NCBI RefSeq assembly: GCF_019173455.1
Contig: NZ_JADPQH010000001.1
Coordinates: forward strand, 1,704,391-1,768,390
Length of the DNA: 64,000 bases
Source: Nesterenkonia sp. Act20
GTDB lineage: Bacteria > Actinomycetota > Actinomycetes > Actinomycetales > Micrococcaceae
Direction of reading: 5' to 3'
The notes below the pieces were generated by a model. It saw nothing but the letters and a program-made list of their open reading frames with translations. It ran no database searches and was not told the DNA's origin. Positions 1 to 19,855 of this stretch are shown one piece after another (the stretch's first letter is position 1; each line of letters begins with the position of its first letter). The position numbers were made by a program, and so were the translations under genes.

Positions 1-533
1 AACGTCAGCCCGAGCCCGAACGGCAGCTCCACACTTCCGGCCGCCTTCTCCTGTGGCACTTCCGGCCGGTCTATGGCAGACGCGTTCCGTGATGCTCCGT
101 TCTGCCTCTCCCCGTCAGCTGTCACGACCATCTCCTGCGCGACGCTGACATGGTTAGGCACGTAAACCCCGGGCTTCTCTTCGTTGCCCGGCGCAATCTG
201 CATGTACGGCAGACGGAGTTCCATGGCGAGGTCGATCTCGTAGGCAGTTCCTTCAGAGGAGGGCTCAAGCCGCGGTATCACGAGCAGGGGATGGTCACCT
301 ACGAACCAAAGGACGTCCCACCGTTCGGGCAGTTCATGAACCGGATAGGTCTGACCGTCCAGCTCGAGGTACAGGTCCTCGCCAGGGACGGCTTCCCCAT
401 CCACGCTGACGCGTACTGTCTGAACCGAAGAAAGCCAGAGGCTGCGGTACCACGGTAGCTGCAGTTCGAGCGCCAGCCCCTTCTCATGGGGGTGGAGGCT
501 TGAGTCTGTGATGAGAACGTCGTGCGTGGCCAT
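1..533 (-). CDS. C-glycoside deglycosidase beta-subunit family protein (third copy), 3' end outside window
   Basis: This reading frame is open from an ATG at 533 to the window edge (177 codons seen). A GGAG ribosome site lies 6 bases upstream of the ATG. The first ~130 residues match the two other small proteins of this operon (9048-9464 and 11625-12029): N-terminal MATH, WYRSLWLSSV near residue 30, and MQIAPG near residue 120. This is the DUF6379 family, whose characterised members are beta-subunits of C-glycoside deglycosidases that pair with a TIM-barrel alpha-subunit. Unlike its paralogues it runs on for at least 40 residues of polar sequence past the point where they stop, so it may carry an extra segment or be fused to something off the left edge. 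It is the last visible gene of the long operon. Family assignment is by resemblance; substrate is not known. Confidence 0.75.
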   Translation of the reverse strand, partial: MATHDVLITDSSLHPHEKGLALELQLPWYRSLWLSSVQTVRVSVDGEAVPGEDLYLELDGQTYPVHELPERWDVLWFVGDHPLLVIPRLEPSSEGTAYEIDLAMELRLPYMQIAPGNEEKPGVYVPNHVSVAQEMVVTADGERQNGASRNASAIDRPEVPQEKAAGSVELPFGLGLT

Positions 534-557
534 GGGTTGCTTCTCCTTATGGATGAT

Positions 558-1532
558 TCAGGTTTCGTGTCGTGCAGGTGCGACGGAACGTGCGCTGCGG
601 AGGGGCGGTGCAGATCGGGCGTGCCCAACAATGTTGGTGATCTCTCCAACGCCTTCGACCCACAGAGTGACCACGTCGCCCTGCTTCAGGGGCGGGGGTT
701 CCATCACTCCGCTGCGTCCCCAGAGTTCGGCCAGACAGCCCCCGTTGCCGACGGTGCCTGATCCGAGGACGTCACCGGGGCGGACGACAGAGTCGCGCGA
801 GGCATAGGCGACGAGTTCCGGGAATGTCCATCCCATGTGCAGGAACGTGTCGTGGCCGACCCTCACACCATTGACGAACGCTTCGGCCTTCAGTGGGAGC
901 AGCCCCTCCGGAGTGCGCCGGGGGTGGAGCTCATCCGCCGTGACGATCCATGGCCCGAGGGTGGTGGCGAAGTCTTTTCCCTTACACGGACCGAGGCGCA
1001 CCCGCATCTCCCTGCTCTGCAGATCACGGGCCGACCAGTCATTCATGACGACGTAGCCGAAGATGTGCCCGTCCGCCTCCTCGGGGGTTAGAGACACGCC
1101 GCTAGAACCGGCGACTCCGCCGACCACAGCAGCCAGCTCGAGCTCGAAGTCCAACCTGTCTGTCATCGGGGGCCGTAAAAGATCTCCGCTACCAAGAATC
1201 GTGTGCGGGTTGGCAAAATAGTAGGTGGGGGCCTCGTACCATTCAGGTACAACTTCGCTGCGGCCATCGACGGCGGCGCTCACCCCCTCGACATGCTCCT
1301 CGAAGGCCACGAAGTCGCGCACCGAAGTGGGCTCGAGGGGAGACGTGAGCGTCACCTGACGCAAGGGTGTCGGCGGCGCCGACGCAACCTGGTCTCTGAC
1401 GCTGTCGACTAGAGCCAGCCCATCGATGAAGAGTTGGCGCATCGTGATGCCGCCCGGAAAGGGAACGACACCCCCGTCGCGAATGAAGCCTTCTTCGAGA
1501 CGTCCGTCATTCCACCATCGTCCCAGTCTCAT
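558..1532 (-). CDS. Fumarylacetoacetate hydrolase-family protein
   Basis: 324 residues. The FAH-fold core shows the acidic metal-binding pattern FELELAAVVGG (about residue 128), MNDWSARDLQ and the closing GDVLGSGTVGNGG segment. FAH-family enzymes hydrolyse or decarboxylate acyl-pyruvate and 2-oxo-acid products of aromatic ring cleavage, using a divalent metal in the cytoplasm. The length (about 320) and the FAHA-like N-terminal extension suggest a two-part FAA hydrolase and not the short hydratase type. Its ATG overlaps the stop of the upstream amidohydrolase by 4 bases, and the beta-subunit gene follows after 24 bases, so translation is coupled. It is one of two FAH paralogues in the operon (the other is at 4724-5674). 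The two are not close duplicates, so they probably act at different steps. Exact substrate unknown. Confidence 0.88.
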   Translation of the reverse strand: MRLGRWWNDGRLEEGFIRDGGVVPFPGGITMRQLFIDGLALVDSVRDQVASAPPTPLRQVTLTSPLEPTSVRDFVAFEEHVEGVSAAVDGRSEVVPEWYEAPTYYFANPHTILGSGDLLRPPMTDRLDFELELAAVVGGVAGSSGVSLTPEEADGHIFGYVVMNDWSARDLQSREMRVRLGPCKGKDFATTLGPWIVTADELHPRRTPEGLLPLKAEAFVNGVRVGHDTFLHMGWTFPELVAYASRDSVVRPGDVLGSGTVGNGGCLAELWGRSGVMEPPPLKQGDVVTLWVEGVGEITNIVGHARSAPPLRSARSVAPARHET

Positions 1533-2563
1533 GTACTGGCCTCCTGGGTCTCGACGTCGACGAGGGCACCCGAGAAGGGAACCAGTTCAGCTGCGTTTTC
1601 GCTGAGAACGCTGCGGGTCTCATCGTCGCCCAAGTCTGCGGCCAGCACGGCTGAGACTGGATCCTCGCAACCCATGTCGAACGGGTAATCACTGCCCATG
1701 AGGACGCGGTCCGCCCCGACGATCGAGATCAGGTGCCGCAGCGCTGCGGAGTCGTGCACGACGCTGTCGAACCATAGGCGTCGCAGGTAGCTCGAAGGCG
1801 GCTCGGCGCACCCTTGAGCCTCCGGTCGGAGGTGCCAGGCCCGGTCGGAGCGTCCAATGGAGCTCGGGAGATACCCACCACCGTGCGCGGCGATCACTTT
1901 CAAACCCAGGTGCCGATCCAAGACCCCAGCGAAGATCAGATGGGACAGAGCCACCGCGTTCTCGGTGAGCTGACCCACCGTGTTTGACAGGTAGAACCGG
2001 TCGAGACGAGCATCAAGGCTGCAGCCGAAGGGATGTAAGAAGACGACCGCCTGGAGTTCTTCAGCCCGGGCCCAGAAGGGCTCGAGCCGTTCATCGGAGA
2101 GCTCCACGTCGCCAGCAAAGGAAGAAAGCTCGACTCCAGCAAGGCCATTCTCGACAACAGCGTCGTCCAGGCAGGAGACCATGAGCTCCGGATGCTGCAA
2201 CGGGACCAGTCCAAGGCCGATCAGCCTCTCCGGGGCACCAGATACATGCTGACCGATCTGCCGGTTGACCTCGCAGACGACCCACTCCGCCAACTCAGCG
2301 TCCGCCCATGGGTAGTAGTGGTTCGGTGAAGGACTCACCCACTGCCGCTCGACACCTTGGGCATCCATGGTGTCCAGTCGAGCCTGGAGAGCTGTCAACT
2401 GCTCGAAGCGCTCACCGATCATGGATGCCGAGGTCCTGAGGCTCGCTGCCCCGTTTCGGGTGGCCTCCAGGACGGCGGCAGTCGCGGCACCCTCTGGATC
2501 CCGACGCTCCACCTCTGCCTGGATACCTGGCATCAGCAGATGGGCGTGCACGTCGACACTCAT
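1529..2563 (-). CDS. Amidohydrolase-2 family protein, ACMSD-like decarboxylase/hydrolase
   Basis: 344 residues beginning directly with the metal motif MSVDVHAH (HxH at residues 6-8). Further ligands are visible: FLHPFG, AAHGGGY and the late Asp in MGSDYPFDMG. This layout is that of amidohydrolase family 2, which includes 2-amino-3-carboxymuconate-semialdehyde decarboxylase, gamma-resorcylate decarboxylase and related metal-dependent non-oxidative decarboxylases. In an aromatic catabolic operon such an enzyme usually decarboxylates an aromatic acid or a ring-cleavage product. The gene overlaps both neighbours by 4 bases (ATGA), which argues for tight co-translation with the FAD monooxygenase and the FAH enzyme. 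A lactonase or hydrolase role is also possible. Confidence 0.85.
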   Translation of the reverse strand: MSVDVHAHLLMPGIQAEVERRDPEGAATAAVLEATRNGAASLRTSASMIGERFEQLTALQARLDTMDAQGVERQWVSPSPNHYYPWADAELAEWVVCEVNRQIGQHVSGAPERLIGLGLVPLQHPELMVSCLDDAVVENGLAGVELSSFAGDVELSDERLEPFWARAEELQAVVFLHPFGCSLDARLDRFYLSNTVGQLTENAVALSHLIFAGVLDRHLGLKVIAAHGGGYLPSSIGRSDRAWHLRPEAQGCAEPPSSYLRRLWFDSVVHDSAALRHLISIVGADRVLMGSDYPFDMGCEDPVSAVLAADLGDDETRSVLSENAAELVPFSGALVDVETQEAST

Positions 2564-3693
2564 GCTGGCACCGCCATCTTCTTCGCCGTGGCGACGATGA
2601 GCCCAGGGGCGTCCGCCTCGCGGTCGCTCTCGAGCTGCCAGCGTCCGAGCTGTACAGATGCTTCGACCACGGCGGCGGCTCGGGAAGTCCGACGGTCGTG
2701 GAACGCGTCCCAGAGCGTGTCATCGAGCTTCTCGGCCCCCGTCAGGAGTTCAGTGAGCACGGTGGCGTCCTCCAGCCCCTGCGCCGCACCTTGAGCGATC
2801 GTCGGGGGGCAGCTATGGGCCGCGTCACCGAGGATCACCACACGACCCCGGTTCCAGGGAGCCTCGACAATGTGGGAGGTGAACCAGGTGTAATTAACCT
2901 TGGCACCTTGCCGGAGGTCTGTTCGAATATGCTCCCACGGTCCGCCGTAGCCGGAAGAGAGCTCTTCCATGATGCGGATTGCCTCGGCATCGTCGACGTT
3001 CGTACGGTCCTGGGCCTTCTCCACGAGGAATGCGTACATCGAGTCTTCACCGGTAGGCGTGTAGCCCGCGATGTACACGGGGCCGCCATAGTACAGCTGC
3101 GTTTCAGTCACCTCCGCGGGCCGAGAGACGAAGGTGCGCCAGATTCCCATTCCCGTCGGCTCAGGCTTCTCGGTGATCCCCAGCTCTCTACGAACGGTGG
3201 AATTCAGTCCGTCGGCCCCGATGACGAGGTCATAACCTCCTCGGTCCTCCCCGTTCACCGAAAGTCGGACCTCGGTACCGCTCTCCTCGAGCCGGGTGAC
3301 CTGTGCGTCCAGATGGACGCGGGCGCCAGCGTCGATCGCCCCCCGATGCATGATGCGTGCAAGGTCAGCACGTGGCATCCCCATGGCCGCTGGCAGATCC
3401 TGTCCGCCAGTTTTGACGTCAGGCAGGTCAGCGATGATATCGGCGGCGGGGCCGGGCGCTCGTAGCTTCAGGCCCTCAAAGGGATAACCGCTCTGCCGGA
3501 CCTGATCCCAGAGGCCCAGGGCGCGCAGGGCCCGCAAAGCGTTTCCCTGCAGCGTGATGCCGGATCCGCGTGTACTCATCTCAGACGCGGCTTCGTACAC
3601 ATCGACGGAGACACCCGATTGGGCGAGTCCGATTGCCGCCGCGAGGCCGGTGACGCCGGCTCCGACCACGGCTACATTGGTGACTGCTGACAT
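2560..3693 (-). CDS. FAD-dependent aromatic monooxygenase (class A)
   Basis: 377 residues. The N-terminus has the Rossmann motif VAVVGAGVTGLAAA. The middle has the DG motif LVIGADGLNSTVR and the C-terminal half has ILGDAAHSCPP, which binds the FAD ribityl/pyrophosphate. Together these define PHBH-type class A flavoprotein hydroxylases, which use NAD(P)H and O2 to hydroxylate phenolic rings. Start chosen at ATG 3693 because AAGGAG lies 7 bases upstream; an in-frame GTG at 3723 overlaps the previous stop but has no comparable site. In the operon it could make the catechol needed by the extradiol dioxygenase at 5735-6751. Ring substrate cannot be read from sequence. Confidence 0.88.
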   Translation of the reverse strand: MSAVTNVAVVGAGVTGLAAAIGLAQSGVSVDVYEAASEMSTRGSGITLQGNALRALRALGLWDQVRQSGYPFEGLKLRAPGPAADIIADLPDVKTGGQDLPAAMGMPRADLARIMHRGAIDAGARVHLDAQVTRLEESGTEVRLSVNGEDRGGYDLVIGADGLNSTVRRELGITEKPEPTGMGIWRTFVSRPAEVTETQLYYGGPVYIAGYTPTGEDSMYAFLVEKAQDRTNVDDAEAIRIMEELSSGYGGPWEHIRTDLRQGAKVNYTWFTSHIVEAPWNRGRVVILGDAAHSCPPTIAQGAAQGLEDATVLTELLTGAEKLDDTLWDAFHDRRTSRAAAVVEASVQLGRWQLESDREADAPGLIVATAKKMAVPA

Positions 3694-3719
3694 CGGGGTA
3701 CTCCTTCGGTTCAGGCCGC

Positions 3720-4727
3720 TCACAGCACGGCGATGGGGTTGATGGGCGAGCCGACAGCTCCTGTGATGGGCAGTGGCGGGGCGGAGAGGAAGAACTCATA
3801 TCGGCCTGCATCTGCACAGATCCGAGCGAGATCCTCCAGATTCCACATCTCTCCGATAGTCAGTCCCATATTGGGGATACACACCTGGTGAAGCGGTTGG
3901 AATGCCTGGTCAAACTCGTTGGGTCGCACTTCGAATCCCCATGTGTCTGTCGCAACCGCGGCGATCTCAGAACGGTGGAGCCAGCTCGCCGTTGTGAACG
4001 ACAGTCCCGGCGCGGGTCCGCCCGCATAATCCCCCCAAGCGCCAGGCCCCACCCGGCTCAACTGGCCGGTCCGCACCAGGAGAACGTCTCCACGGCGCAC
4101 ATCACTGGTGGCTCCTTGCTCCGCGATGCAGCTCTTGAGCTCCTCTTCGGTGATCGCATGTCCGTCGGCAAGTGCACCCGTCTTCGGCTCCAGATGCCGA
4201 CCAAGGTCCAACAGGACCCCTCGGGAGACCACGGTTGCAGCCGCATGCTCGATGCCAGTGACAAGATCTCCATCACTGGTGACCACGTCACCGGCACGAC
4301 GGCCGTTCCAGGCCCGACCATGGTCGAAGATGTGACCCAGCCCATCCCACTGCGTAGAACACTGCAGAGGCATGGAGACGACATCGTCGGCTCCCCCGAT
4401 CCCATGGGGGAAGCCCTGAGCCCCCCGTTCGGCGTCGGTTCCGGTGTCCAGCATCGTGTGGACGGGGTTGGTCCGCCGGCGCCATCCCTTCTGCGGTCCA
4501 TCCATGTCGAAACGCTGGGCCAGGGAGACCGTGCGACCCTCGCTGATGAGTCCGGCGGCCTCTACACGCTTGGCGGCGTCGATGAAGTTCAACGTGCCAA
4601 GTACGTCGTCCTGTCCCCAACGGTTCCAATTGCTGCAAGCTTTGGCGGCTTCAGCGATCTCTCGCTCTGGCGCCAGGCGGTCGAGCTCACGAGGAAGACG
4701 GGTGGGAGAGTGAGGGTTCCCAGTCAT
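3720..4727 (-). CDS. Cyclase-family (kynurenine formamidase-like) hydrolase
   Basis: 335 residues of the cyclase family (PF04199), metal-dependent hydrolases typified by kynurenine formamidase and isatin hydrolase. The metal-binding region reads QWDGLGHIFDHG, equivalent to the family's HxGTHxDxPxH stretch but with Gln-Trp replacing the first His region, as in the longer subfamily found in aromatic catabolic clusters. The N-terminal NRWGQDDVLGTLNFI is also typical of that subfamily. The ATG at 4727 overlaps the stop of the FAH gene by 4 bases and follows a GAGGAGG site, so this start is preferred over an upstream in-frame Met. Probable role: hydrolysis of a lactone, amide or cyclic intermediate of aglycone degradation. 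Confidence 0.85.
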   Translation of the reverse strand: MTGNPHSPTRLPRELDRLAPEREIAEAAKACSNWNRWGQDDVLGTLNFIDAAKRVEAAGLISEGRTVSLAQRFDMDGPQKGWRRRTNPVHTMLDTGTDAERGAQGFPHGIGGADDVVSMPLQCSTQWDGLGHIFDHGRAWNGRRAGDVVTSDGDLVTGIEHAAATVVSRGVLLDLGRHLEPKTGALADGHAITEEELKSCIAEQGATSDVRRGDVLLVRTGQLSRVGPGAWGDYAGGPAPGLSFTTASWLHRSEIAAVATDTWGFEVRPNEFDQAFQPLHQVCIPNMGLTIGEMWNLEDLARICADAGRYEFFLSAPPLPITGAVGSPINPIAVL

Positions 4728-5674
4728 CGGTCCTCCTCGGTCCGGCATCGGACGATCTGGCTTCCCAGATGTTCGATGGATCCGACCATTTCATCCTCGT
4801 CGCGCAGCATCCGACCCCAGTGCATGCCATTTCCGGCGGGGCTGCCGGTGAGCAGCAGGTCTCCGGGCAGCAGAGGCATCGTCTGTGAGGCGTGCGCCAC
4901 CAACGTGGGTACGTCGAACAGTAGGTCGGAGGTGCGAGAGTCCTGCATCAACTCTCCGTTCAGGGTCAGACGAATTCCCAGATCCCCTGGCTCTACGAAG
5001 TGTTCCGGCACGAGGTACGGGCCGGTGGGCAGAAAACCGGGGGCGTTCTTGGCGCGATACCAGTCGGTGCCGATCTCCTTCATGTCTTGTCTGAAGACGA
5101 GGTCTCTCGTGGTGATGTCGTTGACGATTGTGTACCCAGCGATATGGGACCTCGCCTCGGAGGCCTCGATGCGGTACGCAGCTCGCCCGATGACCACTGC
5201 CAGCTCCAGCTCCCAGTCGTGCTGATCGCTGTAATGAGGCAGCTCCAGCACCTCGTCGGCACTCACTACGCAGGCAGGCAGCCCGATGAAGAAGTACGGC
5301 TCGCCTTCGACCTTCCTTCGGTCCATCAGGTCCGCAGCGAAGGCGCGTGCTTCCTCCATAGTCCGGCTGCCGTCCTGGGTGAGCCCGGCGGCCACGAGCT
5401 CGATCACGTGCTCTCGGTAGTTCGCGCCGGTCTGGAGCACCTGACGAGGCTCTACCGGGGCGGCGAGTTGAACCTGGTCGAGACTGTGCCACTGCGTCGT
5501 CGCCGCCGCCACGTCGCCCAAGTGATCCCAGTCTGGGTCGGCCAGGAAATCGTTGAGGCTTCCCGCCCCCAACTCAGCTTCGGTGAGTGGGTGGACGGCC
5601 CCGTCTCGGATCAGTCCAGTGCGTCCATCCCGCATACGAACGAGTGCGTAGGGGACATCGAGACTCCAATCCAT
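4724..5674 (-). CDS. Fumarylacetoacetate hydrolase-family protein (second copy)
   Basis: 316 residues with FAH-fold motifs WELELAVVIGR, VNDITTRDLVFRQ and a C-terminal PGDLLLTGSPAGNG loop. The SPAGNG ending and the conserved Glu/Asp ligands fit the ureidoglycolate lyase / acylpyruvase / 2-hydroxyhepta-2,4-diene-1,7-dioate isomerase branch. Start placed at ATG 5674 (MDWSLD); GGAAGGAG lies about 12 bases upstream, slightly far, and ATG 5698 is an alternative. It follows the extradiol dioxygenase by 60 bases, the position expected for an enzyme processing the ring-fission product. Cytoplasmic, divalent-metal dependent by family. Confidence 0.88.
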   Translation of the reverse strand: MDWSLDVPYALVRMRDGRTGLIRDGAVHPLTEAELGAGSLNDFLADPDWDHLGDVAAATTQWHSLDQVQLAAPVEPRQVLQTGANYREHVIELVAAGLTQDGSRTMEEARAFAADLMDRRKVEGEPYFFIGLPACVVSADEVLELPHYSDQHDWELELAVVIGRAAYRIEASEARSHIAGYTIVNDITTRDLVFRQDMKEIGTDWYRAKNAPGFLPTGPYLVPEHFVEPGDLGIRLTLNGELMQDSRTSDLLFDVPTLVAHASQTMPLLPGDLLLTGSPAGNGMHWGRMLRDEDEMVGSIEHLGSQIVRCRTEEDR

Positions 5675-5734
5675 TGATTTCACTCGCTCCTTCCACATCC
5701 GCTGACTGTCACGACGTTGCTGCGCATGCCGCCC

Positions 5735-6751
5735 TCAGCCTCGACCCTGGACGGCATACGGGTTGAGCAGAGCGTCCTTGACCTCCTCCGGGACTCCCTC
5801 CTCTGTGGCACTGGGCCCGTCGGCAGCAGGGAAAGACTCGGTCATGGACATCGGCATGGCGCCATTCCGGTAGAAGTTGTTCGAGCCCTGGGATGGAGTC
5901 CAGGTGTTCGGCTGCCAGTCCGGCACATAGTTGCGGTAGCCGCCGGTGTTCAACTCAATGCGCAGCGTCGACGGTTCTCGGTAGTAGAGGAAGTTTTGTT
6001 CGCCGATGCCGTGGATAGAGGGGCCGTACTCGATGTCAGTCCCGTTCTCCATGAGCACATCGGCCGCAATGAGCAGCTCCTCGCGAGTGTCGACCCAGAA
6101 CGCGTAGTGATTCACCCGGCCAGCACGCGTCGAACCATCGAGGACGACACCGAGATCATGTGATTTCTCGTTGGTAGTGAGGACCGAGAAGACCGACACC
6201 GGAGCTTCATCCAACACAGTGCGAGCCATATGCCTGAATCCGAACACGCGGGTGTACCACTCGCAGAACGCGTCAACATCGCGGGCAGCGACCGTGACAT
6301 GATCCAGCTGGCGAGGAGCACCGGCGTGGGAGGATCGGCGCTGCGGACGGTCCGGGTAGATGGAGGCAACTTCGCCCCCGCTGGAGTGGTGCTCGACCTC
6401 CCAGTGCAGAGTCATGGGATGCCCCTGCGGGCCGGTGAAGCGATAGGCGCGGCCGATCGTGTAGCCGTCGAACCACTCGCCCTGGACGCCTTCAGCCTCG
6501 ACACGCCTTACCGCCTCTTCGAGAGCCTCCGGGCTCGTAGTGCGCCACGCGGCGGTATGCAGGCCGGGTTCCTCGCCCTGGATGACGACGACGCTGTATC
6601 GGTAGTAGTCCCCCCAGCAGCGCAGGTAGACGGCGTCGTCGGTCCGGTCGACAACGTGAAGGCCCACCTGCTTTTCATAGAAGGAGACGGAAGCCTCGAC
6701 GTCGGGAGTTGTGATGGCCACGTAGGAGAGGTGGGAGAGAAGGCTGATCAT
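5735..6751 (-). CDS. Type I extradiol (catechol 2,3-) dioxygenase, VOC superfamily
   Basis: 338 residues in two vicinal-oxygen-chelate domains. The Fe(II) triad is visible at about His151 (LDHVTV), His215 (RVNHYAFW) and Glu266 (LRIELN), with a conserved Tyr near 257 (LYYREPS). The spacing matches XylE-type catechol 2,3-dioxygenase, which opens a catechol ring next to the diol using O2. Start set at ATG 6751, preceded by AAAGGATC; an upstream in-frame Met at 6829 lacks a site. A complete metal triad argues for activity. The gene sits between sugar-processing and FAH genes, and gaps of 114 and 60 bases on either side make it the likely junction between the sugar and aromatic halves of the operon. 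Confidence 0.92.
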   Translation of the reverse strand: MISLLSHLSYVAITTPDVEASVSFYEKQVGLHVVDRTDDAVYLRCWGDYYRYSVVVIQGEEPGLHTAAWRTTSPEALEEAVRRVEAEGVQGEWFDGYTIGRAYRFTGPQGHPMTLHWEVEHHSSGGEVASIYPDRPQRRSSHAGAPRQLDHVTVAARDVDAFCEWYTRVFGFRHMARTVLDEAPVSVFSVLTTNEKSHDLGVVLDGSTRAGRVNHYAFWVDTREELLIAADVLMENGTDIEYGPSIHGIGEQNFLYYREPSTLRIELNTGGYRNYVPDWQPNTWTPSQGSNNFYRNGAMPMSMTESFPAADGPSATEEGVPEEVKDALLNPYAVQGRG

Positions 6752-6865
6752 GGTCGATCCTTTCGATTCGGTTCTTCCTCCACTATCGGTGACCTGCGCC
6801 ACACTGATTCGGGGGGATTGCGTATACACGGGATCACAGAGATTTATGGGTGACGCCGATCGGCC

Positions 6866-9464: not shown

Positions 9465-9478
9465 CTAGTGTCCTCTCC

Positions 9479-11628: not shown

Positions 11629-12029
11629 GCGGGAACCTCTTCCTTGGTCGTCATGAGCTTCTCGTCGTGTTCATCGATTCGTAGGACTTCTCCATCGCCG
11701 ATGATGATGTAGGGAATGTAGAGCGACAGGTGGACGGCTACCGTGTGCTCATTAGCGGAAGCGACCGCGAGCTCGCCGGAGAGCACCGCTGAGTCAACCG
11801 GGAACCACCACTCATCCACTTCATCTCGCATCTCGGCGAAGGTGAAGGTCCGGCCGTTCATCTCCCAACGCACGGATTCGGCGGGGGCCGTGACACCGTC
11901 AACCGTCAGACGTGCGTCCTCTATGCATGAGGCTGGCAGCGCTCGGTACCAGGGAATCCGTACCTCTACGGACGCTCGTGATCCCGCAGTGCGTAGCGTG
12001 CCTTGCTCAATGATGCGATCAGGAATCAT
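11625..12029 (-). CDS. C-glycoside deglycosidase beta-subunit family protein (first copy)
   Basis: 134 residues of the DUF6379 family. It keeps the core IPWYRALPAS segment (compare LPWYRSLWLS in the other copies) but diverges elsewhere; the MQIAPG segment is replaced by YIIIGDG. ATG 12029 is chosen because AAGGAGG is 5 bases upstream; a TTG six codons earlier would overlap that site. The stop overlaps the alpha gene by 4 bases, the arrangement expected for two subunits of one enzyme. It is the most divergent of the three beta copies, which suggests a separate heteromer. Confidence 0.78.
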   Translation of the reverse strand: MIPDRIIEQGTLRTAGSRASVEVRIPWYRALPASCIEDARLTVDGVTAPAESVRWEMNGRTFTFAEMRDEVDEWWFPVDSAVLSGELAVASANEHTVAVHLSLYIPYIIIGDGEVLRIDEHDEKLMTTKEEVPA

Positions 12030-12107
12030 CTGGTCCTCCTTGTCCAAGCGGCGCGAGCGAAGCTCCCGCCGGGTATGTGTATATCTGGGTCGACCGCGCC
12101 GGGGGCC

Positions 12108-13655
12108 TCATGAAAGGCGCCGAGCGATCTCGCGCGCACCGCGGACGGCCAGCGCAACGGATGTGAGCGTGGGATTGCACGCTGTCGAGGTGGGGATGAC
12201 GCCGTTGCCGGCCACGAACAGGTCGGCGACTCCCCAAACCTCGCTGTCGGGTCCGCAGACGCTCGACCCGTCATCTACAAGTCCCATACGGGTGGTCCCT
12301 TGGTAGTGCAGCGAAGATCCCAGCGGGAGGGTGAATGAGGCTTCATCCAGCGGATCGCCGATGGCCCGGCCCCATTTGACGATGGCCTCGCGCGCTCGGG
12401 CCAACTCGGCGTGGTCGTAGTCCGAGAGTCTGTAGTGAATGCGTGGCGCGGGGAGCCCGAAGGGGTCAACGCGATCATCGGAGAACTCGACGCGGTCATC
12501 TGGCGAGAGTTCCTTCGCGCAGAAGACACCAATCCCGACCACAGAGCCGGGGACGACAGGATCGTCTTCGGCGACCGGAACCGGAGAGGCATCCAATTGC
12601 ATGATCTGACCATGAAAGGGCTCGTCGTCCGTATAAGGCACCCATGTCACGCCACTGGTGACTGAGATTCCAACGGCAGGGGCACCATCCGCAGGGCTGT
12701 GCGCATCGGGTTGCTCTGCATCTCGGAGTCTGACCGCGAATACGATCTGTGTCTGATCGTTGAGGTACCGGCCAAGAGCGAGCGGGCGAACACCGGATGC
12801 CCAAAGCAGCTGAGGGCTCCGTATCGCGTCCGCCGCGACGACGATGTGCCGTGCGCGAACCTCATGAGTTTCTCCACTGAGCCGGTCTCTCACCATCACG
12901 CCGACGGCACGGCCTGACTCAACTAGGATCCGCGTGACCACAGATTCGTCGAAGAGGCTGTATCCGGCGTCCGCTCGCGTGACGTCTCCGAGCACGACGT
13001 CGGAGCCCGCCCAGACCAGAACGTCATCCTCACGCCTCTCTACGGCCAGCGGCATTCGCCGCACCCCGGCCTCGGCGGGTCGTGATCCGTTCACGGCAGC
13101 GGCCAGTCGTGTGCGTACAAGCTCGCTGAATGGAGAACTGTCGAATGCCTCCGAAGTGACCCCAAGCATACGCTCCGCTTCACTGAGCAGCTCGTCGAGA
13201 TCGGGCAAGAAATCGATTCGTTCCCCACCCTGAGGCCGCGGGCACGCCCCTGTCCAGTGTGCAGCCATGCCTCCGACGTTGCAGGACATAGCGGCGACGG
13301 GCAGACCGTCCTCCCCGTCGATACCATCATCGGTGCCTGAACCCGTTGAGCCGTCCCCGAGTAGGAAGGTCCCGGGCCGCGCACGCAGCTGCCCACCCTT
13401 GACCTCTCCCGGATGAGCAACGGTCTCAGCGTCTGCGGCTGGCCCGGCTGAAAGACGTTGCGCCTGCCGTCGTGCCTCAGGGTCGGCAATAGTCTTCACG
13501 TGCGCACCGGGAGGCGTGGAGACAGTAGGTCCAGCCTCGAACATTGCAACCTTCGTTCCAGGGCGGTTCTCTGCCAGGACGCGTGCGTAGGTAGCCCCCG
13601 TCGGTCCGCTACCGATAATCGCCACCTCCACAGCCTCCGGGTAGCGGCCACTCAT
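12108..13655 (-). CDS. GMC-type FAD oxidoreductase, probable C-glycoside/pyranose 3-oxidase
   Basis: 515 residues. The N-terminal FAD-binding motif is VAIIGSGPTGATYA. A CNVGGMAAHWTGACPRP segment marks the FAD-contact region of the pyranose-oxidase/GMC group, and the C-terminus has LHYQGTTRMG (catalytic His region) and VAGNGVIPTSTACNPTLT (catalytic Asn region). CarA-type FAD enzymes of this family oxidise the 3-OH of glucose in aromatic C-glycosides, making the C-C bond labile for the alpha/beta deglycosidase. It lies immediately upstream of a beta-alpha-alpha-beta block, just as in known car clusters, and its start overlaps the isomerase-like gene by 4 bases. No signal peptide is seen, so it acts on imported substrate. 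Confidence 0.85.
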   Translation of the reverse strand: MSGRYPEAVEVAIIGSGPTGATYARVLAENRPGTKVAMFEAGPTVSTPPGAHVKTIADPEARRQAQRLSAGPAADAETVAHPGEVKGGQLRARPGTFLLGDGSTGSGTDDGIDGEDGLPVAAMSCNVGGMAAHWTGACPRPQGGERIDFLPDLDELLSEAERMLGVTSEAFDSSPFSELVRTRLAAAVNGSRPAEAGVRRMPLAVERREDDVLVWAGSDVVLGDVTRADAGYSLFDESVVTRILVESGRAVGVMVRDRLSGETHEVRARHIVVAADAIRSPQLLWASGVRPLALGRYLNDQTQIVFAVRLRDAEQPDAHSPADGAPAVGISVTSGVTWVPYTDDEPFHGQIMQLDASPVPVAEDDPVVPGSVVGIGVFCAKELSPDDRVEFSDDRVDPFGLPAPRIHYRLSDYDHAELARAREAIVKWGRAIGDPLDEASFTLPLGSSLHYQGTTRMGLVDDGSSVCGPDSEVWGVADLFVAGNGVIPTSTACNPTLTSVALAVRGAREIARRLS

Positions 13656-14446
13656 GCGATCCCCGCCAGGTCCGAGATGTAGCGTGTCGAGGCCAGGCTC
13701 TCCTGTGTCGGGTAGTACTCGAGACCGATCGGCCCGTCGTAGCCTGAGGCTTGCAGGATTTTTAGCCGCTCTGGCCAGTCCAGCTGTCCTGAACCAGGCT
13801 CTCCGCGCCCTGGACTGTCGGCGAGTTGCACGTAGCGCACGAGATCGCCGGCCTCGGCCAGCTCTGCGGCCATATTTTCGCCCTCAACGGCTGAGTGGTA
13901 GATGTCGTAGAGCACTCCAAACGACTCGGAGTCCACGCCTCGCGCTACATACACGGCTTCTGAGGTTCGGTCCAGCAAAGCACCGGGGTGGTCCACACGT
14001 ATGTTGACCGGTTCTAACACCAAGGTGATGCCGGACCCATCGATCTGAGATACAGCCCGCCGATAGATTTCAGTGAGTTCGTCCAACTGGGCTTGCCGTT
14101 TCATGCCTCCGAAACCGGTGCCACTGCCTACTACGATTCGGGGGCAGCCCAGAGTTCGGGCGATCTCAACTCCTTCGTCGAGTTTGCGATAGAACTCGGA
14201 GTGGTCCTTGGGCGGGATCATGAATTGCGTTCGGGGTTCCGCGAGTTGCGCGATCAAGCTCACGCCGGTCTCCTCGAGCGCATTCTTCAGCGCCGGAATA
14301 TCCTTGGGACGGGCGGGAGCGTCAACCCCTGTTGGGCCCCACATCTCGACGGCGCTGAACCCCGCCGCAGCCGCGGCACGAACCCGCGCTGGGTAGTCAC
14401 CAGCTTCGTGGAAGATGAGCTCAATATTGGGGGCGAGTTGAAACAT
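13652..14446 (-). CDS. Hydroxypyruvate isomerase-like TIM-barrel protein
   Basis: 264 residues, the usual length of hydroxypyruvate isomerase (Hyi)-family TIM barrels. Metal ligands: Glu in LVLEPVN, Asp and His in LYDIYHSAV, Gln in VRYVQLADSPGR, Glu in GLEYYP. The VQLADSPGR-GEPGSG segment is characteristic of Hyi and related 3-oxo-tetronate or 2-keto-sugar isomerases. It begins 66 bases after the ABC permease genes and overlaps the GMC oxidoreductase by 4 bases. It may interconvert keto-sugars released by C-glycoside cleavage; actual hydroxypyruvate activity is not implied. Confidence 0.85.
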   Translation of the reverse strand: MFQLAPNIELIFHEAGDYPARVRAAAAAGFSAVEMWGPTGVDAPARPKDIPALKNALEETGVSLIAQLAEPRTQFMIPPKDHSEFYRKLDEGVEIARTLGCPRIVVGSGTGFGGMKRQAQLDELTEIYRRAVSQIDGSGITLVLEPVNIRVDHPGALLDRTSEAVYVARGVDSESFGVLYDIYHSAVEGENMAAELAEAGDLVRYVQLADSPGRGEPGSGQLDWPERLKILQASGYDGPIGLEYYPTQESLASTRYISDLAGIA

Positions 14447-14512
14447 GGGGAGTTAACTCCTGTCAGTGAGTTTGGAAAATGGCACGCCAGCGCTAGCGAC
14501 TTGGAGCACTCG

Positions 14513-15352
14513 TCAGCCTTTGAGCCCGCCGGCAAATCCTTGGATGAACTTCTTTTGGGCGAACATGTACAGCGCGAGGATTGGGATCATGGAGATGATC
14601 ACGATGGCGAAAATCTGGTTCCATTGAGAAACGAGGGACCCCACGTAGTAGTACATGGCCACCGGGAGGGTCTGGACCTCGGACCCTCCCAGGAACACGA
14701 GGCCCGTGAAGAAGTCGTTCCAGATGATGAGGCCCCCGAGGATCGCGACGGTCCCGGTCGCGGGGGACATCAAGGGGAGCACGATGCGAAAGAAGATCTG
14801 GCCCCGACTGGCTCCGTCGATTAGCGCCGCTTCCTCGTACTCGATTCCGAGACCTCGGAAGAACCCTGAATATAAGAAGGTTGCTAGGGGCAGCATCATG
14901 CCGGTGTACAGCACGATCATTCCCCACACCGTCCCAGTCAGCCCTAGAGTCGACGCGCCCATGTACAGCGGAACCGTCGCTAACTGCGGTGGCAAGATGA
15001 TGCCCACAAGGAAGAGGTAGTACATAGACTTGCTCCAACGCGGCGACGCGCTGCGGGAGATGACATATCCAGCGAGAGACCCTAGGACGATGAGGCACAG
15101 CACCGAACCGCCCGTCATGATGACGCTGTTCCTCAACCCCCCAAGGACATCAGAGTTGCCCGCGGCCGTCAGAACGGTCTGGAAACTGCTCAAGCTTGGC
15201 GTCTCGGGTAGGGCGAATGGCGAGGTTCCGAAGACCTCCGAGTCGTCCTTCAACGACATGGAGATCACGAAGAAGAAGGGCAGGAGGTACAGAACCGCAA
15301 TCAGCCAGAGAGCGACCTCACGGACAGCCGTGAATGTGGTGTATCGGAACAT
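14513..15352 (-). CDS. Carbohydrate ABC transporter permease (MalG-type)
   Basis: 279 residues with six predicted membrane helices. The ATPase-contact EAA loop reads EEAALIDGASRGQIFF followed by ..LPL near residue 190, as in MalG/UgpE-type permeases (CUT1 family). It begins 2 bases after the stop of its partner permease, so the two subunits are co-translated. With the lipoprotein at 16399-17682 it forms the importer for the operon's substrate. No gene for the nucleotide-binding subunit is visible; CUT1 systems in actinobacteria commonly share an MsiK-type ATPase encoded elsewhere. Confidence 0.93.
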   Translation of the reverse strand: MFRYTTFTAVREVALWLIAVLYLLPFFFVISMSLKDDSEVFGTSPFALPETPSLSSFQTVLTAAGNSDVLGGLRNSVIMTGGSVLCLIVLGSLAGYVISRSASPRWSKSMYYLFLVGIILPPQLATVPLYMGASTLGLTGTVWGMIVLYTGMMLPLATFLYSGFFRGLGIEYEEAALIDGASRGQIFFRIVLPLMSPATGTVAILGGLIIWNDFFTGLVFLGGSEVQTLPVAMYYYVGSLVSQWNQIFAIVIISMIPILALYMFAQKKFIQGFAGGLKG

Positions 15353-15354
15353 GA

Positions 15355-16395
15355 TCAGTCCTTGCGTTCTTGGGTGAGGCGCTGTTGGACCACCGCGAAG
15401 AAGATGATGATGAGGGTCAGGACCAGCGCCAGCGCCGCGCCGTAGCCGAAGTTCCCCAGGGCGAATGACTCCTTGTAAACGACAGTGGCAAGATTCTCAG
15501 TGACTCCTGCGGGCCCTCCACCCGTGATGGCCAGAATGGGGTCAAAAATCCGCAATCCGTTGACAATGCCGAGGATGGTTGAGATGGCAATTGCCGGTCG
15601 CAGCGAGGGCAAAACTACGAACCACAGACGTTGAAGCGTGGAGGCGCCGTCGATGGCCGCCGCCTCTTCCATCTCCTGTGGAACTCCGGCCAGGCCTGCC
15701 ATAAAGATGACCATCGGGATCCCGGTGGTCTGCCAGGCAATCACTAGGAGCACCACCCAAATCGCGAAGGTCGGATCAGCAACCCAGGCCCTCGCGAAAT
15801 CACCCAGGCCGACCGCCGTAAGGAATGCGTTGAGGGGGCCGTCGAAATCGAAGATATAGCGCCAGACGTACGCGGTGGCCAACGGAGAGAGCACTACCGG
15901 CATGAAGAACAGGACTCGAAGCCAGTAGCGCGTCTTGAGGCCGCGGTTCAGTCCCAGTGCAAGCGCTAGGCCCATCACGTTCGCAACAAGGACAGAGCCG
16001 AAAGCTAGGAATAACGTGTTTCCCAGTGCAAGAAGCATCTCGGCGTCTGCGAAGATCTCCGTGAAGTTCTGGACACCGATCCATTCAAAGCTGCCAATGC
16101 CAGTCCAATCGGTGAAGGCGTAAAACCCCCCGAAGGCGGTCGCGACATAGTGGATGCTGAAGACCAGCAGCACAGCGGGCATAGCCCACCACCATCGCCC
16201 GAATCGCGTCCGGGTCCCCCGCGGACCCTGACGGCTGGCGGCACCTGGTGCTCGCTCGCCGACAGGGTCCGCGGGGAGTGATGCGGCGTCGTTCTCGGCG
16301 GTTCCGGTCTGGTTCGCGAGGTTCGGTACCTGTACCTCGGCGACCGGGTCAGACGAGACAGGGTCTCGTCGACGGCGGATCTCAGCCCTAGTCAT
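15355..16395 (-). CDS. Carbohydrate ABC transporter permease (MalF-type)
   Basis: 346 residues. A hydrophilic N-terminal tail of about 70 residues (Arg- and Pro-rich) precedes six membrane helices starting at WAMPAVLLVFSIHYV. The EAA loop is EEAAAIDGASTLQRL..LPSL near residue 250. This is the MalF/UgpA-type half of a CUT1 sugar importer. It starts 3 bases after the binding-protein stop and ends 2 bases before the MalG-type gene. The long cytoplasmic tail is unusual only in length. The substrate is inferred from the operon to be a glycoside or its sugar. Confidence 0.93.
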   Translation of the reverse strand: MTRAEIRRRRDPVSSDPVAEVQVPNLANQTGTAENDAASLPADPVGERAPGAASRQGPRGTRTRFGRWWWAMPAVLLVFSIHYVATAFGGFYAFTDWTGIGSFEWIGVQNFTEIFADAEMLLALGNTLFLAFGSVLVANVMGLALALGLNRGLKTRYWLRVLFFMPVVLSPLATAYVWRYIFDFDGPLNAFLTAVGLGDFARAWVADPTFAIWVVLLVIAWQTTGIPMVIFMAGLAGVPQEMEEAAAIDGASTLQRLWFVVLPSLRPAIAISTILGIVNGLRIFDPILAITGGGPAGVTENLATVVYKESFALGNFGYGAALALVLTLIIIFFAVVQQRLTQERKD

Positions 16396-16398
16396 CGG

Positions 16399-17682
16399 TT
16401 ACTCTCCCCAGGCGTCGTCCATAGCGGTGAGTACCTGCTCCGGGGTGGACTGACCCGTAAGCAGCCCCTGGATCCCGGCGCCCAGTTCTTCATAGACAGC
16501 TGGGTTGGGCCACTCATCATTGGCGAACGGGGCGTAGTAGTCACCTTCCAGGAGGAGATCCTGTACTGGTTCGTAGGAGCTGCCCTCGAAATCGTAGTTT
16601 TCGAGGTCTGCCGGGAGAGCGTCAGAAACCTCCGCGTAGATCTCCAAGGCCCTATCCTCCTGCAGCCAAGCGATGAAGTCGTTCGCGGCTTGGTTGTCCT
16701 CGGCCTCGGCATTCAGGGAGACCAGGTAGTTGGCGGCGACCTGAAGAGACGGTTCCCCTCCCTCAGCGGGAGGGAAGGCATTGAGTACGAACTCAAGGTC
16801 CTCGTTTGCCTGCTCGAGCTCGGGGGCGGCGCCTCCGGGCCCAAACATGGCCATGGCCTCGCCCTGTACAAGCGAATTAGTCAGCACGTCGAATCCCGCA
16901 CCTTCAGCACCTGGCTGGAAGCACTGGGCATCGATCATGGCGACAACGTTCTCCAAGGCCTGTTGCCAACCCTCACTGTCAGCGAAAGTGACTTCACCCG
17001 CAGCCCGCTTCTCATTCCACTCTGGATCCTCTGCATACACAGCGGTGGACGCCGCCATGAGCGCGGTTACGCCGGAGTTTTGCGGAGTGCCGCCGGCAAG
17101 GACCAGCAGACTGTTTCCACCCTCGGCAGTTTCGCCGCAGGCAGCGATGAGGTCTTCAAAGGTTTCTGGGAAGGTCTCGAGTCCGAGCTCCTCAGCTGTG
17201 GTCTGGTTCGTCACAAGACCGTTGAGTGCCAGCCCGGGTGCGACGCCGTAGTACTCGTCTTCAAACGTGTACTGCTCATGGTTGCCTTCCGGCAGGAGAT
17301 CTCCAGCTGAGTCATCCAGAGGTGCCAGGAATCCTGCTTCAGCCAGCGAGACCACGCCTCTGGTCTGTCCGGCACCGGGGACCGTCTGCATGACGTCAGA
17401 CGCGTTGCCTCCTTGCAACTGAGTGCGCAAGGATTCGCCATAGCTATCCTGGGGCTGAGAATTCAGCGTGATCTCAACGTCAGGGTTCTCATCCATATAC
17501 GCCTCGGCAAGGGCCTCCCAAGGACTCTCGAGATTATTCGCCGCGGCGTAAGTGAAAGAGAACGCTTGCTCCTCGGCGCCGTTTTCACCTTCGGACCCAC
17601 CGCCGCAAGCGGTGAGTCCGAGAGCAGCAACGGTGGAGACTCCGATCCACCGTCCTAGGTATCGCGATCTGTCAGTGGTCAT
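16399..17682 (-). CDS. Sugar ABC transporter substrate-binding lipoprotein
   Basis: 427 residues. The N-terminus has a lipoprotein signal: positive residues, a hydrophobic VSTVAALGLTAC stretch and Cys in the lipobox LTAC-GGG, so it is anchored outside the membrane. The rest matches extracellular solute-binding family 1 (MalE-like), with many acidic residues typical of actinobacterial binding proteins. Start placed at ATG 17682 (MTTDRS), 7 bases after AAGGG; ATG 17697 is possible. It is the first gene after the LysR regulator and the most likely point of operon induction. Binding of an intact aromatic glycoside is inferred, not shown. Confidence 0.92.
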   Translation of the reverse strand: MTTDRSRYLGRWIGVSTVAALGLTACGGGSEGENGAEEQAFSFTYAAANNLESPWEALAEAYMDENPDVEITLNSQPQDSYGESLRTQLQGGNASDVMQTVPGAGQTRGVVSLAEAGFLAPLDDSAGDLLPEGNHEQYTFEDEYYGVAPGLALNGLVTNQTTAEELGLETFPETFEDLIAACGETAEGGNSLLVLAGGTPQNSGVTALMAASTAVYAEDPEWNEKRAAGEVTFADSEGWQQALENVVAMIDAQCFQPGAEGAGFDVLTNSLVQGEAMAMFGPGGAAPELEQANEDLEFVLNAFPPAEGGEPSLQVAANYLVSLNAEAEDNQAANDFIAWLQEDRALEIYAEVSDALPADLENYDFEGSSYEPVQDLLLEGDYYAPFANDEWPNPAVYEELGAGIQGLLTGQSTPEQVLTAMDDAWGE

Positions 17683-17732
17683 GATCCAGCCCTTCATCGT
17701 CGGATTGAGATTCAACTAGTGGTGCTGATCTC

Positions 17733-17755
17733 AGTATCCTGTGGTCTGGGTCACA
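17733..17755 (-). promoter_or_regulatory. Candidate promoter with inverted repeat ahead of the ABC/C-glycoside operon
   Basis: Between the LysR stop and the binding-protein start, the minus strand has GATACT (17733-17738), a possible -10. Directly upstream is TGTG-N8-CACA (17740-17755), an imperfect dyad in the place where a LysR-type activator or other operon regulator could sit. No convincing -35 was found, which suits an activator-dependent promoter. Inference only. Confidence 0.3.
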
Positions 17756-17828
17756 TCATTATCAGGCTCAGCGATACCGGACATCACGCGACTCGTCGGG
17801 GGTAGGCCCCGAAAGTGCGGTGAGGGCG

Positions 17829-18779
17829 TTACTGACGGCGGTTGTGAGCCAATCGGGTACCGAGGGCTTGCGCGGCCTTGCGAAGCTGTGCTCGCAGCCA
17901 TTGATGTTCGGGATCACCCTCGTGCGCGGGGTGCCACCACACGGCATTCAAGAGCTCCGCCTCAAACAGCGGCGCCGGCAGGATCTTGATAGTCCCCCGA
18001 GCCTCAGCCTCGGTCGCCACGCCTTCCTGCATAACGGCAAGCCGATTCGTTCCGGCGACGACATGGGGAAGAGCTGAGAAGCTCTCCACCAGCATCGCCA
18101 CACGCGGCTCAACTCCGAGAGCCCGCAACTGGCCTCCCGGCACCGTCCAGTCCGCAAGACCGTCGAGGGTGGCGACCCAGGTCGCTTGCGAGAGGGCCTC
18201 TGTTACGTCGCCTTCCTCTACCAGGCGATTCTCTGGGTCAGCGATGACCACCCATCGGTCACGCCACAGATCGAGGTGTGGGAATCCGGATACGTAACCG
18301 TGGGGGAGGAACATGGCATCGACGGCACGCAAGGACCGCGTCGCGTCTTCGACGACTTTCTGGTCATGGAGCATGAAACGTAGCCGCACACCAGGCGCCT
18401 GCGCGGAAACGATGCGAGATAGCTCCGCGCCGATCTGAGTGAACGCGTGGTCAGAACCGTAGAAGACGAACTCGCGATGAGAAAGTCGCGGATCCCAGTC
18501 AACCTTGGCGTCGAACACGCGAACGGCGGCGCGAAGGGCCGTGTTTACAGGGTCTATCAACTCCGCCGCCAGCGGCGTGAGCTCGTTAGTGGACCCGCGC
18601 CTAATGAGGAGTTCGTCGTCGAAATGCTCCCTCAGGCGCGCCAAAGAGGCAGAGAGCGCTGGCTGACTGAGCCAGAGTCGCGAGGCCGCCCTGGTGACAT
18701 TGCGCTCCGTCAACAGAGCATCCAGCGCGAGGAGCAGATTGAGATCCAAGCGCGACATCGAACGTCCCACATCAGCCAC
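17829..18779 (-). CDS. LysR-family transcriptional regulator
   Basis: 316 residues. The N-terminal winged HTH is recognisable: LLALDALLTERNVTRAASRLWLSQPA followed by LSASLARLREHFDDELLIRRG, with a C-terminal periplasmic-binding-like effector domain. The motif set and the DLNLLLALDALL opening are like the NodD/LinR-type branch that senses flavonoids and other aromatics. The GTG at 18779 is chosen because AGGAGG lies 6 bases upstream; an ATG at 18758 has no site. It is co-directional and immediately upstream of the long operon, so it is the obvious candidate regulator. Confidence 0.9.
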   Translation of the reverse strand: MADVGRSMSRLDLNLLLALDALLTERNVTRAASRLWLSQPALSASLARLREHFDDELLIRRGSTNELTPLAAELIDPVNTALRAAVRVFDAKVDWDPRLSHREFVFYGSDHAFTQIGAELSRIVSAQAPGVRLRFMLHDQKVVEDATRSLRAVDAMFLPHGYVSGFPHLDLWRDRWVVIADPENRLVEEGDVTEALSQATWVATLDGLADWTVPGGQLRALGVEPRVAMLVESFSALPHVVAGTNRLAVMQEGVATEAEARGTIKILPAPLFEAELLNAVWWHPAHEGDPEHQWLRAQLRKAAQALGTRLAHNRRQ

Positions 18780-19049
18780 TTCAAGCCTCCTGGTTGTTGC
18801 CGGATCTCCCGCGCGCCCACACTCTACGACAAGTGGTCTCCTTCGCTGTTGGCAGCCACGAGCTGGGGCATGAGACGACGGGCTTCCGGGGGTTTTTGGC
18901 CGCCGCAGGCGAGGGTGATCCGTGACGAACGGGTGCGGTCACAATTCCACAGCAGGGAACGCCATACTCCGAACAATGATGAACCATCTCGCATCTTGGT
19001 CTCCAAGCTACGCCGCCAAACAGCGAACGGGTCTGCCGCACGAATAGGT

Positions 19050-19714: not shown

Positions 19715-19774
19715 TCACGGACCGAAGAACCACCACGAAAGCTGTCGGTGATAACAAACATGGACATGCGCTTT

Positions 19775-19805: not shown

Positions 19806-19855
19806 CTGTCGTTTCAACTGATCGTCTCTGCTGACACCCCCAAGGTGGTTTCCCT

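Follow-up and report, generated by a model that had tools for sequence, protein, structure and literature searches.

Does a single gene run in an actinobacterium both split the sugar from an aromatic C-glycoside and open the ring of the aglycone that is released? This question is raised by a 64,000-nucleotide stretch of Nesterenkonia sp. Act20 (contig NZ_JADPQH010000001.1, positions 1,704,391 to 1,768,390, forward strand; hereafter 'the window'), which lies on the first contig (C1) of a 2.93 Mb genome in two contigs. One end of the window carries a long minus-strand gene run encoding transporter components, a GMC-family oxidase, C-glycoside deglycosidases (CGDs) and a set of aromatic ring-cleavage enzymes. 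On balance, this run is probably an operon for the utilisation of C-glycosyl polyphenols, most likely C-glycosyl flavonoids, that ends in meta-cleavage of the A ring.

The gene run

The run consists of 20 co-directional genes over ~21.7 kb, of which 18 are in the window and two lie beyond its edge. In the window it extends from a solute-binding protein gene to the edge, with a LysR gene ahead. The features are as follows.

17829-18779, minus: LysR-type regulator (PF00126, PF03466), 131 nt ahead of the solute-binding protein gene and on the same strand as the operon
16399-17697, minus: ABC solute-binding protein (PF01547); start taken from the gene caller
15355-16395, minus: ABC permease 1 (PF00528)
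14513-15352, minus: ABC permease 2 (PF00528)
13652-14446, minus: TIM-barrel protein, hydroxypyruvate-isomerase-like (PF01261; TIGR03234 158 bits, below the cut-off of 353)
12108-13655, minus: GMC oxidase (GMC1) of the glycoside/C-glycoside 3-oxidase type (734 bits to 7qf8, 705 to 7dve)
11625-12047, minus: CGD beta subunit 1 (PF19906, 61.6 bits, cut-off 27.6)
10513-11628, minus: CGD alpha subunit 1, lacking the pocket loop of the C8 type (7dnm_A 200 bits; catalytic and metal residues kept)
9479-10516, minus: CGD alpha subunit 2, AgCGD2-like, C8-type (76% identity to the AgCGD2 fragment; 7/7 residues kept)
9048-9464, minus: CGD beta subunit 2 (PF19906, 51.6 bits)
7867-9027, minus: Gfo/Idh/MocA oxidoreductase, proposed 3-keto-glucose reductase (PF01408, PF22725)
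6866-7870, minus: TIM-barrel protein, proposed 2-hydroxy-3-keto-glucal hydratase (PF01261; role by analogy with LgdB2/AtHYD)
6752-6865, minus: 114-nt junction where the deglycosylation part meets the aromatic part (half of a conserved box lost, -10-like GATAGTGG kept)
5735-6751, minus: type I extradiol dioxygenase (PF00903; TIGR03211 249 bits, below the cut-off of 320)
4724-5698, minus: fumarylacetoacetate-hydrolase (FAH) family protein 1 (PF01557)
3720-4748, minus: cyclase/metal-dependent hydrolase (PF04199)
2560-3693, minus: class A FAD monooxygenase, proposed A-ring hydroxylase (PF01494; NF005313 393.5 bits, above the cut-off of 372)
1529-2563, minus: amidohydrolase 2, proposed decarboxylase or hydrolase (PF04909)
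558-1532, minus: FAH-family protein 2 (PF01557)
1-533, minus: N-terminal part of a 499-residue CGD beta-alpha fusion (whole gene L004:13034-14533; PF19906 and PF01261 in one open reading frame; 7dnm_A 423 bits, 7dnm_B 119 bits)
L004:11515-13068, outside the window, same run: MFS transporter
L004:9953-11518, outside the window, same run: GMC oxidase 2 (GMC2)

The count, order and strand of the 18 minus-strand genes behind a LysR gene, as given in the initial annotation, are borne out by the open reading frames and Pfam matches, and genes for importing a C-glycoside, oxidising it at C3, splitting the C-C bond and opening the ring are all present. The window itself has a single GMC oxidase, GMC1; GMC2 is encoded beyond the edge, where the fusion gene is completed and is followed by the MFS gene, GMC2 and then a LysR gene on the plus strand. 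No ABC ATPase match was found among the proteins of the run by Pfam search.

Spacing is tight, as had been claimed (mostly under 70 bases). Intergenic gaps range from -35 to 66 nt except between the TIM-barrel and dioxygenase genes, where the gap is 114 nt with the start that gives a 338-residue dioxygenase and 36 nt with an upstream GTG start. Four-base overlaps number eight in the window (six ATGA and two GTGA, the GTGA pair requiring upstream GTG starts) rather than the nine first reported; the ninth, a seventh ATGA, is the MFS/GMC2 junction outside the window. The G+C content of the operon (62.0%) is close to that of the remainder of the window from position 20001 (61.7%), and by this comparison no compositional trace of recent import is seen.

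Co-occurrence of the two halves

The association between the deglycosylation and ring-cleavage halves was assessed in an order-wide sample of 396 genomes, using a dioxygenase orthologue (E ≤ 1e-100) and CGD beta (PF19906, E ≤ 1e-8) as markers. The dioxygenase occurs in 27 genomes and CGD beta in 16; 12 have both, 15 the dioxygenase only, four CGD only and 365 neither. Against ~1 genome expected to carry both, this is a strong excess (Fisher p 1.0e-12, or 1.1e-11 with the source genome left out). The excess is retained when counted by genus (109 genera: dioxygenase in 10, CGD in eight, both in five; Fisher p 1.1e-4). Where both occur, the dioxygenase and CGD genes are within 13 kb of each other in six of the 12 genomes; the linkage distances, the 12 genomes and the five genera were read by hand from the two scans. 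The two halves are thus evolutionarily coupled, far beyond chance in the sampled order, and the joining of the halves proposed in the initial annotation is supported because the sampled genomes keep them together. When 394 genomes were sampled across the whole class, five had CGD beta, counting the source genome, and a same-genus genome (G352) has neither CGD nor a close dioxygenase.

Deglycosylation and sugar salvage

By sequence comparison, the GMC1 and CGD steps are close kin of characterised enzymes. The scores of GMC1 to 7qf8 and 7dve contrast with at most ~104 bits to pyranose 2-oxidase entries. We take 7qf8 to be PsG3Ox (the entry itself is named 'GMC oxidoreductase family protein') and 7dve to be CarA (the molecule name of the entry differs). 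PF19906 is matched at three places in the source genome, all above the cut-off, and in none of 14 control genomes. In an alignment, residues E147, H149, D179, H269, K271, E305 and E307 (AgCGD2 numbering) are invariant in all three CGD alpha proteins, fusion included. The list and numbering of these metal and catalytic residues follow PMC8563793, and 7dnm_A is taken as AgCGD2, its beta chain being named AgCarC2 and the numbering fitting. Cleavage of the C-C bond of a 3-keto C-glycoside is the predicted reaction of the window CGDs.

Two pocket types can be proposed. Alpha-2 and the fusion (76% and 58% to the AgCGD2 fragment) keep the Pro-Phe loop and the Asn-Met pair that are tied to C8 preference in AgCGD2 (PMC8563793). 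Alpha-1 (35%) has neither feature; opposite the Asn-Met it shows Gly-Leu by alignment, or Ala-Ala by eye against alpha-1 of Microbacterium trichothecenolyticum and Agromyces tardus, both of which have Asn-Gly at that position. It also apparently lacks the aglycone-contact Asn248 (C5 hydroxyl in AgCGD2), unlike these two counterparts, a comparison made partly by eye. Alpha-2 would therefore be C8-type like AgCGD2, and alpha-1 of another, possibly C6-like type. CGDs accept a broad range of aglycones, and the soil CarB/CarC enzymes were discovered on carminic acid (PMC8563793).

The beta-alpha fusion has one-piece alignments in two other genomes (G168 and G389), over 489 and 492 residues respectively. 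It was considered as a new architecture and this was rejected, since PDB entry 8qrz looks like a solved fusion in the same order: in 8qrz_A (435 residues) the beta query matches residues 24-136, weakly (E 4e-4), and the alpha part matches from residue 140. The core of the PurB N-terminal peptide, with up to two changes allowed, has no match in the relatives' loci retrieved.

The sugar product proposed for CGDs is 1,5-anhydro-D-erythro-hex-1-en-3-ulose (PMC8563793). In the levoglucosan and Agrobacterium routes 2-hydroxy-3-keto-glucal is hydrated by a sugar-isomerase-like enzyme, and reduction of 3-keto-glucose falls to an enzyme of the Gfo/Idh family (PMC7676230, PMC10628242), the evidence for the Agrobacterium route being termed preliminary by its own paper (PMC10628242). 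By analogy, the Gfo/Idh and TIM-barrel genes adjoining beta-2 are likely to encode a hydratase/reductase pair for the released sugar. The window Gfo/Idh protein does not reach the levoglucosan dehydrogenase model NF052479 (345 bits, cut-off 650).

The aromatic half

The dioxygenase matches PF00903 in two stretches. The metal ligands of type I extradiol enzymes are His, His and Glu, and H151, H215 and E266 are invariant across eight sequences. Assignment to the homoprotocatechuate or catechol pathway was dropped because no equivalog cut-off is reached among the three best-scoring ring-cleavage models in NCBIfam (249/320 bits for catechol 2,3-dioxygenase, 152/321 for HpaD and 74/366 for BphC) and because a separate, 27% identical homologue is encoded at C1:411167.

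The pairing of an FAD monooxygenase with a glyoxalase-superfamily dioxygenase in one cluster recalls the fde naringenin route of Herbaspirillum and the ifc isoflavone route of Variovorax, in which 8-hydroxylation by an FAD monooxygenase precedes A-ring opening by a dioxygenase of that superfamily (PMC11069340, PMC11303751). As a set, the monooxygenase, dioxygenase, FAH, cyclase and amidohydrolase proteins resemble such a monooxygenase-plus-extradiol A-ring route. IfcA acts on isoflavone aglycones and not on isoflavone glycosides or the other flavonoid classes tried (PMC11069340); deglycosylation would therefore come first if the window monooxygenase behaves alike. Elsewhere, the source genome encodes a protocatechuate 3,4-dioxygenase beta subunit above the cut-off (C2:805106-805759), with a second, lower-scoring match adjoining, and a PobA-like protein of 364 bits, below the cut-off of 539.

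Genomic context in relatives

The surroundings of the dioxygenase were surveyed in the best 80 of 223 relatives from a scan of the genome collection, with 10-kb flanks; 12 of the 80 stretches are incomplete, and absences in these are weak. A CGD of at least 50% identity (weaker matches being uncounted) lies within 10 kb in 25 loci, and 20 further loci contain CGD-module oxidase or sugar genes of at least 55% identity. GMC2 is the sole such gene in nine.

In M. trichothecenolyticum DSM 8608 the gene set spans ~42 kb, and its GMC1 (63% to that of the window, and identical to 7dve over 515 residues) is encoded 13 kb from the orthologous dioxygenase. A plasmid of Arthrobacter sp. StoSoilB13 carries both halves ~9 kb apart. 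The match to CGD alpha-1 there (L064:5370-6441) is split into two parts whose reading frames differ, and this copy may be broken. On pDAETH-1 of Deinococcus aetherius, ABC genes, CGD alpha-like and beta-like genes (~30%), a GMC gene (46%) and the dioxygenase (67%) occur in a row, together with genes annotated as cyclase, FAH and serine peptidase-family proteins and a pair of FAD oxidoreductases, which are 26 and 31% identical to the monooxygenase of the window. The idea that the arrangement is unique to this locus was accordingly rejected; it is common in Microbacteriaceae and is also found in an Arthrobacter and on a Deinococcus plasmid.

Six of the 80 loci have a GH78 rhamnosidase next to the aromatic core, all among those without CGD-module genes. 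In Agromyces seonyuensis (L073, on a contig also labelled G204) the genes run from a solute-binding protein through two permeases, GH78, GH3 and LysR to the core genes dioxygenase, cyclase, monooxygenase and FAH; the order in L142 is similar by tblastn, and in L070 GH1 and GH78 genes are near the core. Rhamnosidase genes, joined at some loci by GH3 or GH1, are typical of flavonoid O-glycosides and expected for flavonoid rutinosides, and the core beside GH78 therefore indicates flavonoid aglycones. Directly ahead of the dioxygenase there is an MFS gene in L067 and a branched-chain-type ABC system in L069.

Two further arrangements were observed. In Microbacterium mangrovi (L100:12574-19314) the dioxygenase follows the CGD module, with only a distant FAH (42%) and monooxygenase (37%) nearby. 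A divergent alpha/beta pair resembling CGD (~25-30% identity), absent from the window, is present at L159:16715-18097 and at many loci among L067-L146; it separates the TIM barrel from the dioxygenase and is mostly encoded on the other strand.

In a dioxygenase tree of 86 rows, built by a quick method with SH-aLRT support only, the window falls in a starred set of eight, the other seven of which comprise four stand-alone loci, two linked to GH78 and one with a CGD-module sugar gene. The joining of the halves in the window lineage was probably a separate event, because most CGD-linked loci fall in another starred set, of 63 rows, to which the window dioxygenase does not belong; as the labels come from 10-kb flanks, this is tentative.

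The junction and a conserved box

A search without a prior model found a box, gcATAG.cAaaaTC.g.TTCCCTGATa, in 53 non-redundant loci; in almost all of them it ends 49-76 nt upstream of the dioxygenase start. Models trained on half of the loci score at least 15 bits in 24/27 and 23/26 of the held-out loci, against a maximum of 2.8 in shuffled sequences that preserve base make-up only. The full model scores at least 20 bits in 76 of the 80 loci, 53 of which were used in training. The box is also present at CGD-linked loci (M. trichothecenolyticum, A. tardus, StoSoilB13 and G168). It offers a testable candidate site for a LysR-type regulator.

In the window the box model reaches at best -11.5, and the half models give -6.9 and -15.8. 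When the junction is aligned with those of seven near relatives, the distal CATAAA-N6-GTGAT and the -10-like GATAGTGG prove to be kept and TTCCCTGAT to be lost. The window is not the sole case of box loss, because L086 and L105 both score below 12 bits and the D. aetherius stretch gave no box. Loss of the proximal half-box fits a takeover by the upstream promoter and capture of the aromatic genes into one transcript. However, since the distal half-site and the -10-like element remain, the junction leaves room for an altered internal promoter.

Over positions 1-19900 there are eight terminator-like matches against 9.3 in shuffled sequence and two sigma-70-like matches against 3.1, and no terminator-like match occurs in the 114-nt gap. 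Taken together, the spacing, the absence of a terminator excess and the loss of the proximal half-box are compatible with one transcript for the whole run. Inspection by eye for an operator shared by the two window promoters gave nothing firm; the box model scores -7.4 bits before the solute-binding protein gene.

Proposed pathway and alternative explanations

As a route for C-glycosyl flavonoids, the operon can be read as follows. The ABC system would import the C-glycoside, and the flavin-dependent GMC oxidase would oxidise its sugar at C3. The metal-dependent CGDs, with one pocket type for C8-linked and one for C6-like substrates, would then eliminate the aglycone, and the TIM-barrel hydratase and Gfo/Idh reductase could convert 2-hydroxy-3-keto-glucal to glucose. 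The FAD monooxygenase would hydroxylate the A ring of the freed aglycone, the type I extradiol dioxygenase would open the hydroxylated ring, and the FAH, cyclase and amidohydrolase enzymes may break up the cleavage product. The leftover B-ring acid could enter the 4-hydroxybenzoate/protocatechuate metabolism encoded elsewhere in the genome. We infer the flavonoid substrate, the C6/C8 preferences, the order of the reactions, transcription as a single unit and all steps after C-C cleavage.

Several observations weigh against this pathway. Six of the 12 genomes that carry both halves have the dioxygenase and CGD genes far apart or on separate contigs; 15 of 27 dioxygenase genomes are without CGD, and four of 16 CGD genomes are without the dioxygenase. 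Of the 80 loci, 26 show neither a CGD-module gene nor GMC2 in the stretch. In A. tardus the dioxygenase ends a CGD run, yet the monooxygenase, FAH, cyclase and amidohydrolase are unmatched in 49 kb (L162-L164). The ifc route uses cupins in its later steps (PMC11069340, PMC11303751), and the likeness of the window set to it is one of gene families.

Alternatively, the run could be two adjacent, independently regulated units that share only a neighbourhood, the aromatic part serving another phenol. Several relatives have the aromatic core without CGD genes, with an adjacent divergent LysR gene in G204 and G321; the conserved box ahead of the core hints that the core once had a separate promoter, and the distal half-site and the -10-like element persist in the window. 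Nevertheless, this arrangement seems unlikely. The halves co-occur strongly and are linked in several lineages, the junction is short, lacks a terminator-like match and has lost its proximal box, and the CGD fusion and a GMC oxidase come after the aromatic genes. More doubtful still, to the point of being improbable, is a role mainly on O-glycosides, in which the oxidase and CGD-like proteins would work through C3 oxidation followed by beta-elimination, O-glycosylated aromatics being what the operon degrades. The sequence of oxidation, elimination, hydration and reduction does serve O-glycosides and levoglucosan (PMC10628242, PMC7676230), and PurA oxidises O-glycosides too (PMC12724307). However, the beta subunits are members of the C-glycoside deglycosidase family, AgCGD2 is a close relative of both alpha-2 and the fusion, and the six GH78-linked core loci carry these glycosidases instead.

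Alongside the C-glycosyl-flavonoid pathway, a broader model can be offered to which we give an even chance. Soil actinobacteria would share a modular route for using C-glycosyl flavonoids as whole molecules, built on a conserved core for A-ring hydroxylation and meta-cleavage with its own LysR-type box and on plug-in sugar modules (C-deglycosidases, or rhamnosidase and beta-glucosidase) that have been joined to it more than once. Here the core would have been absorbed into the deglycosylation transcript, its proximal box having decayed.

Relation to known systems

The dgp operon of the intestinal strain PUE (DgpA, DgpB and DgpC) encodes homologues of CGD alpha and beta and uses oxidation then elimination, as proposed for the window; to our knowledge it includes no aerobic ring cleavage. 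Its first enzyme is NAD-dependent (PMC12724307), whereas that of the window is a flavin GMC oxidase. The car cluster of soil Microbacterium (CarA/CarB/CarC; MiCGD, MtCGD) and AgCGD1/2 of Arthrobacter globiformis likewise combine a GMC 3-oxidase with alpha-beta deglycosidases. Their published function ends at sugar release, with ring-cleavage genes unmentioned in the available part of PMC8563793; the window cluster adds the aromatic core directly, and a fusion CGD. In the PsG3Ox cluster of Pseudarthrobacter siccitolerans the oxidase is likewise accompanied by two CGD pairs (PMC10646112), and the PurABC strain Paenarthrobacter sp. No. 37 grows on puerarin with daidzein as product (PMC12724307); the parts of these two accounts available do not give the fate of the aglycone. 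Conversely, C-deglycosylation genes, present in the window, are unmentioned for fde and ifc in the available parts of PMC11069340 and PMC11303751. The levoglucosan LgdA-B1-B2-C and Agrobacterium GlycDH-AtOGE-AtHYD-Gfo pathways follow the same four-step logic with sugar-isomerase-like and Gfo/Idh partners, although their eliminase and substrate differ from those of the window cluster.

Ring-cleavage genes together with CGDs are not described in the available parts of PMC8563793, PMC12724307, PMC10646112, PMC11069340, PMC10628242, PMC7676230, PMC11303751 or PMC10807413. No account joining C-glycoside cleavage to extradiol ring cleavage was found in the open literature, the search leaving subscription journals mostly uncovered; the one paper that names both a C-glycoside and an extradiol reaction is a betalain review whose title points to another subject. 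A paper on a Deinococcus aerius cluster (J Mol Biol, 2024) may mention neighbouring genes, ring-cleavage genes possibly among them. The 3-keto C-glycoside half thus appears to be known chemistry and the joined ring-cleavage half to be undescribed in the literature searched. In this respect the unfamiliarity of the single-operon route noted in the initial annotation stands for the ring-cleavage part, but the combination itself recurs in relatives (Microbacteriaceae, Arthrobacter and Deinococcus).

Work on C-glycoside breakdown suggests that the sugar is the prize (PMC8563793). The recurrence of the ring-cleavage core beside deglycosidases, including in the species of the 7dve oxidase, suggests that the aglycone is also food. 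The cluster offers candidate genes by which compounds of the vitexin or puerarin type might be broken down aerobically, a fate missing from present accounts.

Flanking regions

Upstream of the operon, positions 19008-19442 contain a fragment of an integrase core (rve_2), possibly the remnant of an insertion sequence. Just beyond the other end of the cluster (L004:6233-8779) are genes for CoA-transferase subunits and a thiolase, for which a role in 3-oxoadipate metabolism is conceivable, the thiolase scoring best with an acetyl-CoA acetyltransferase model.

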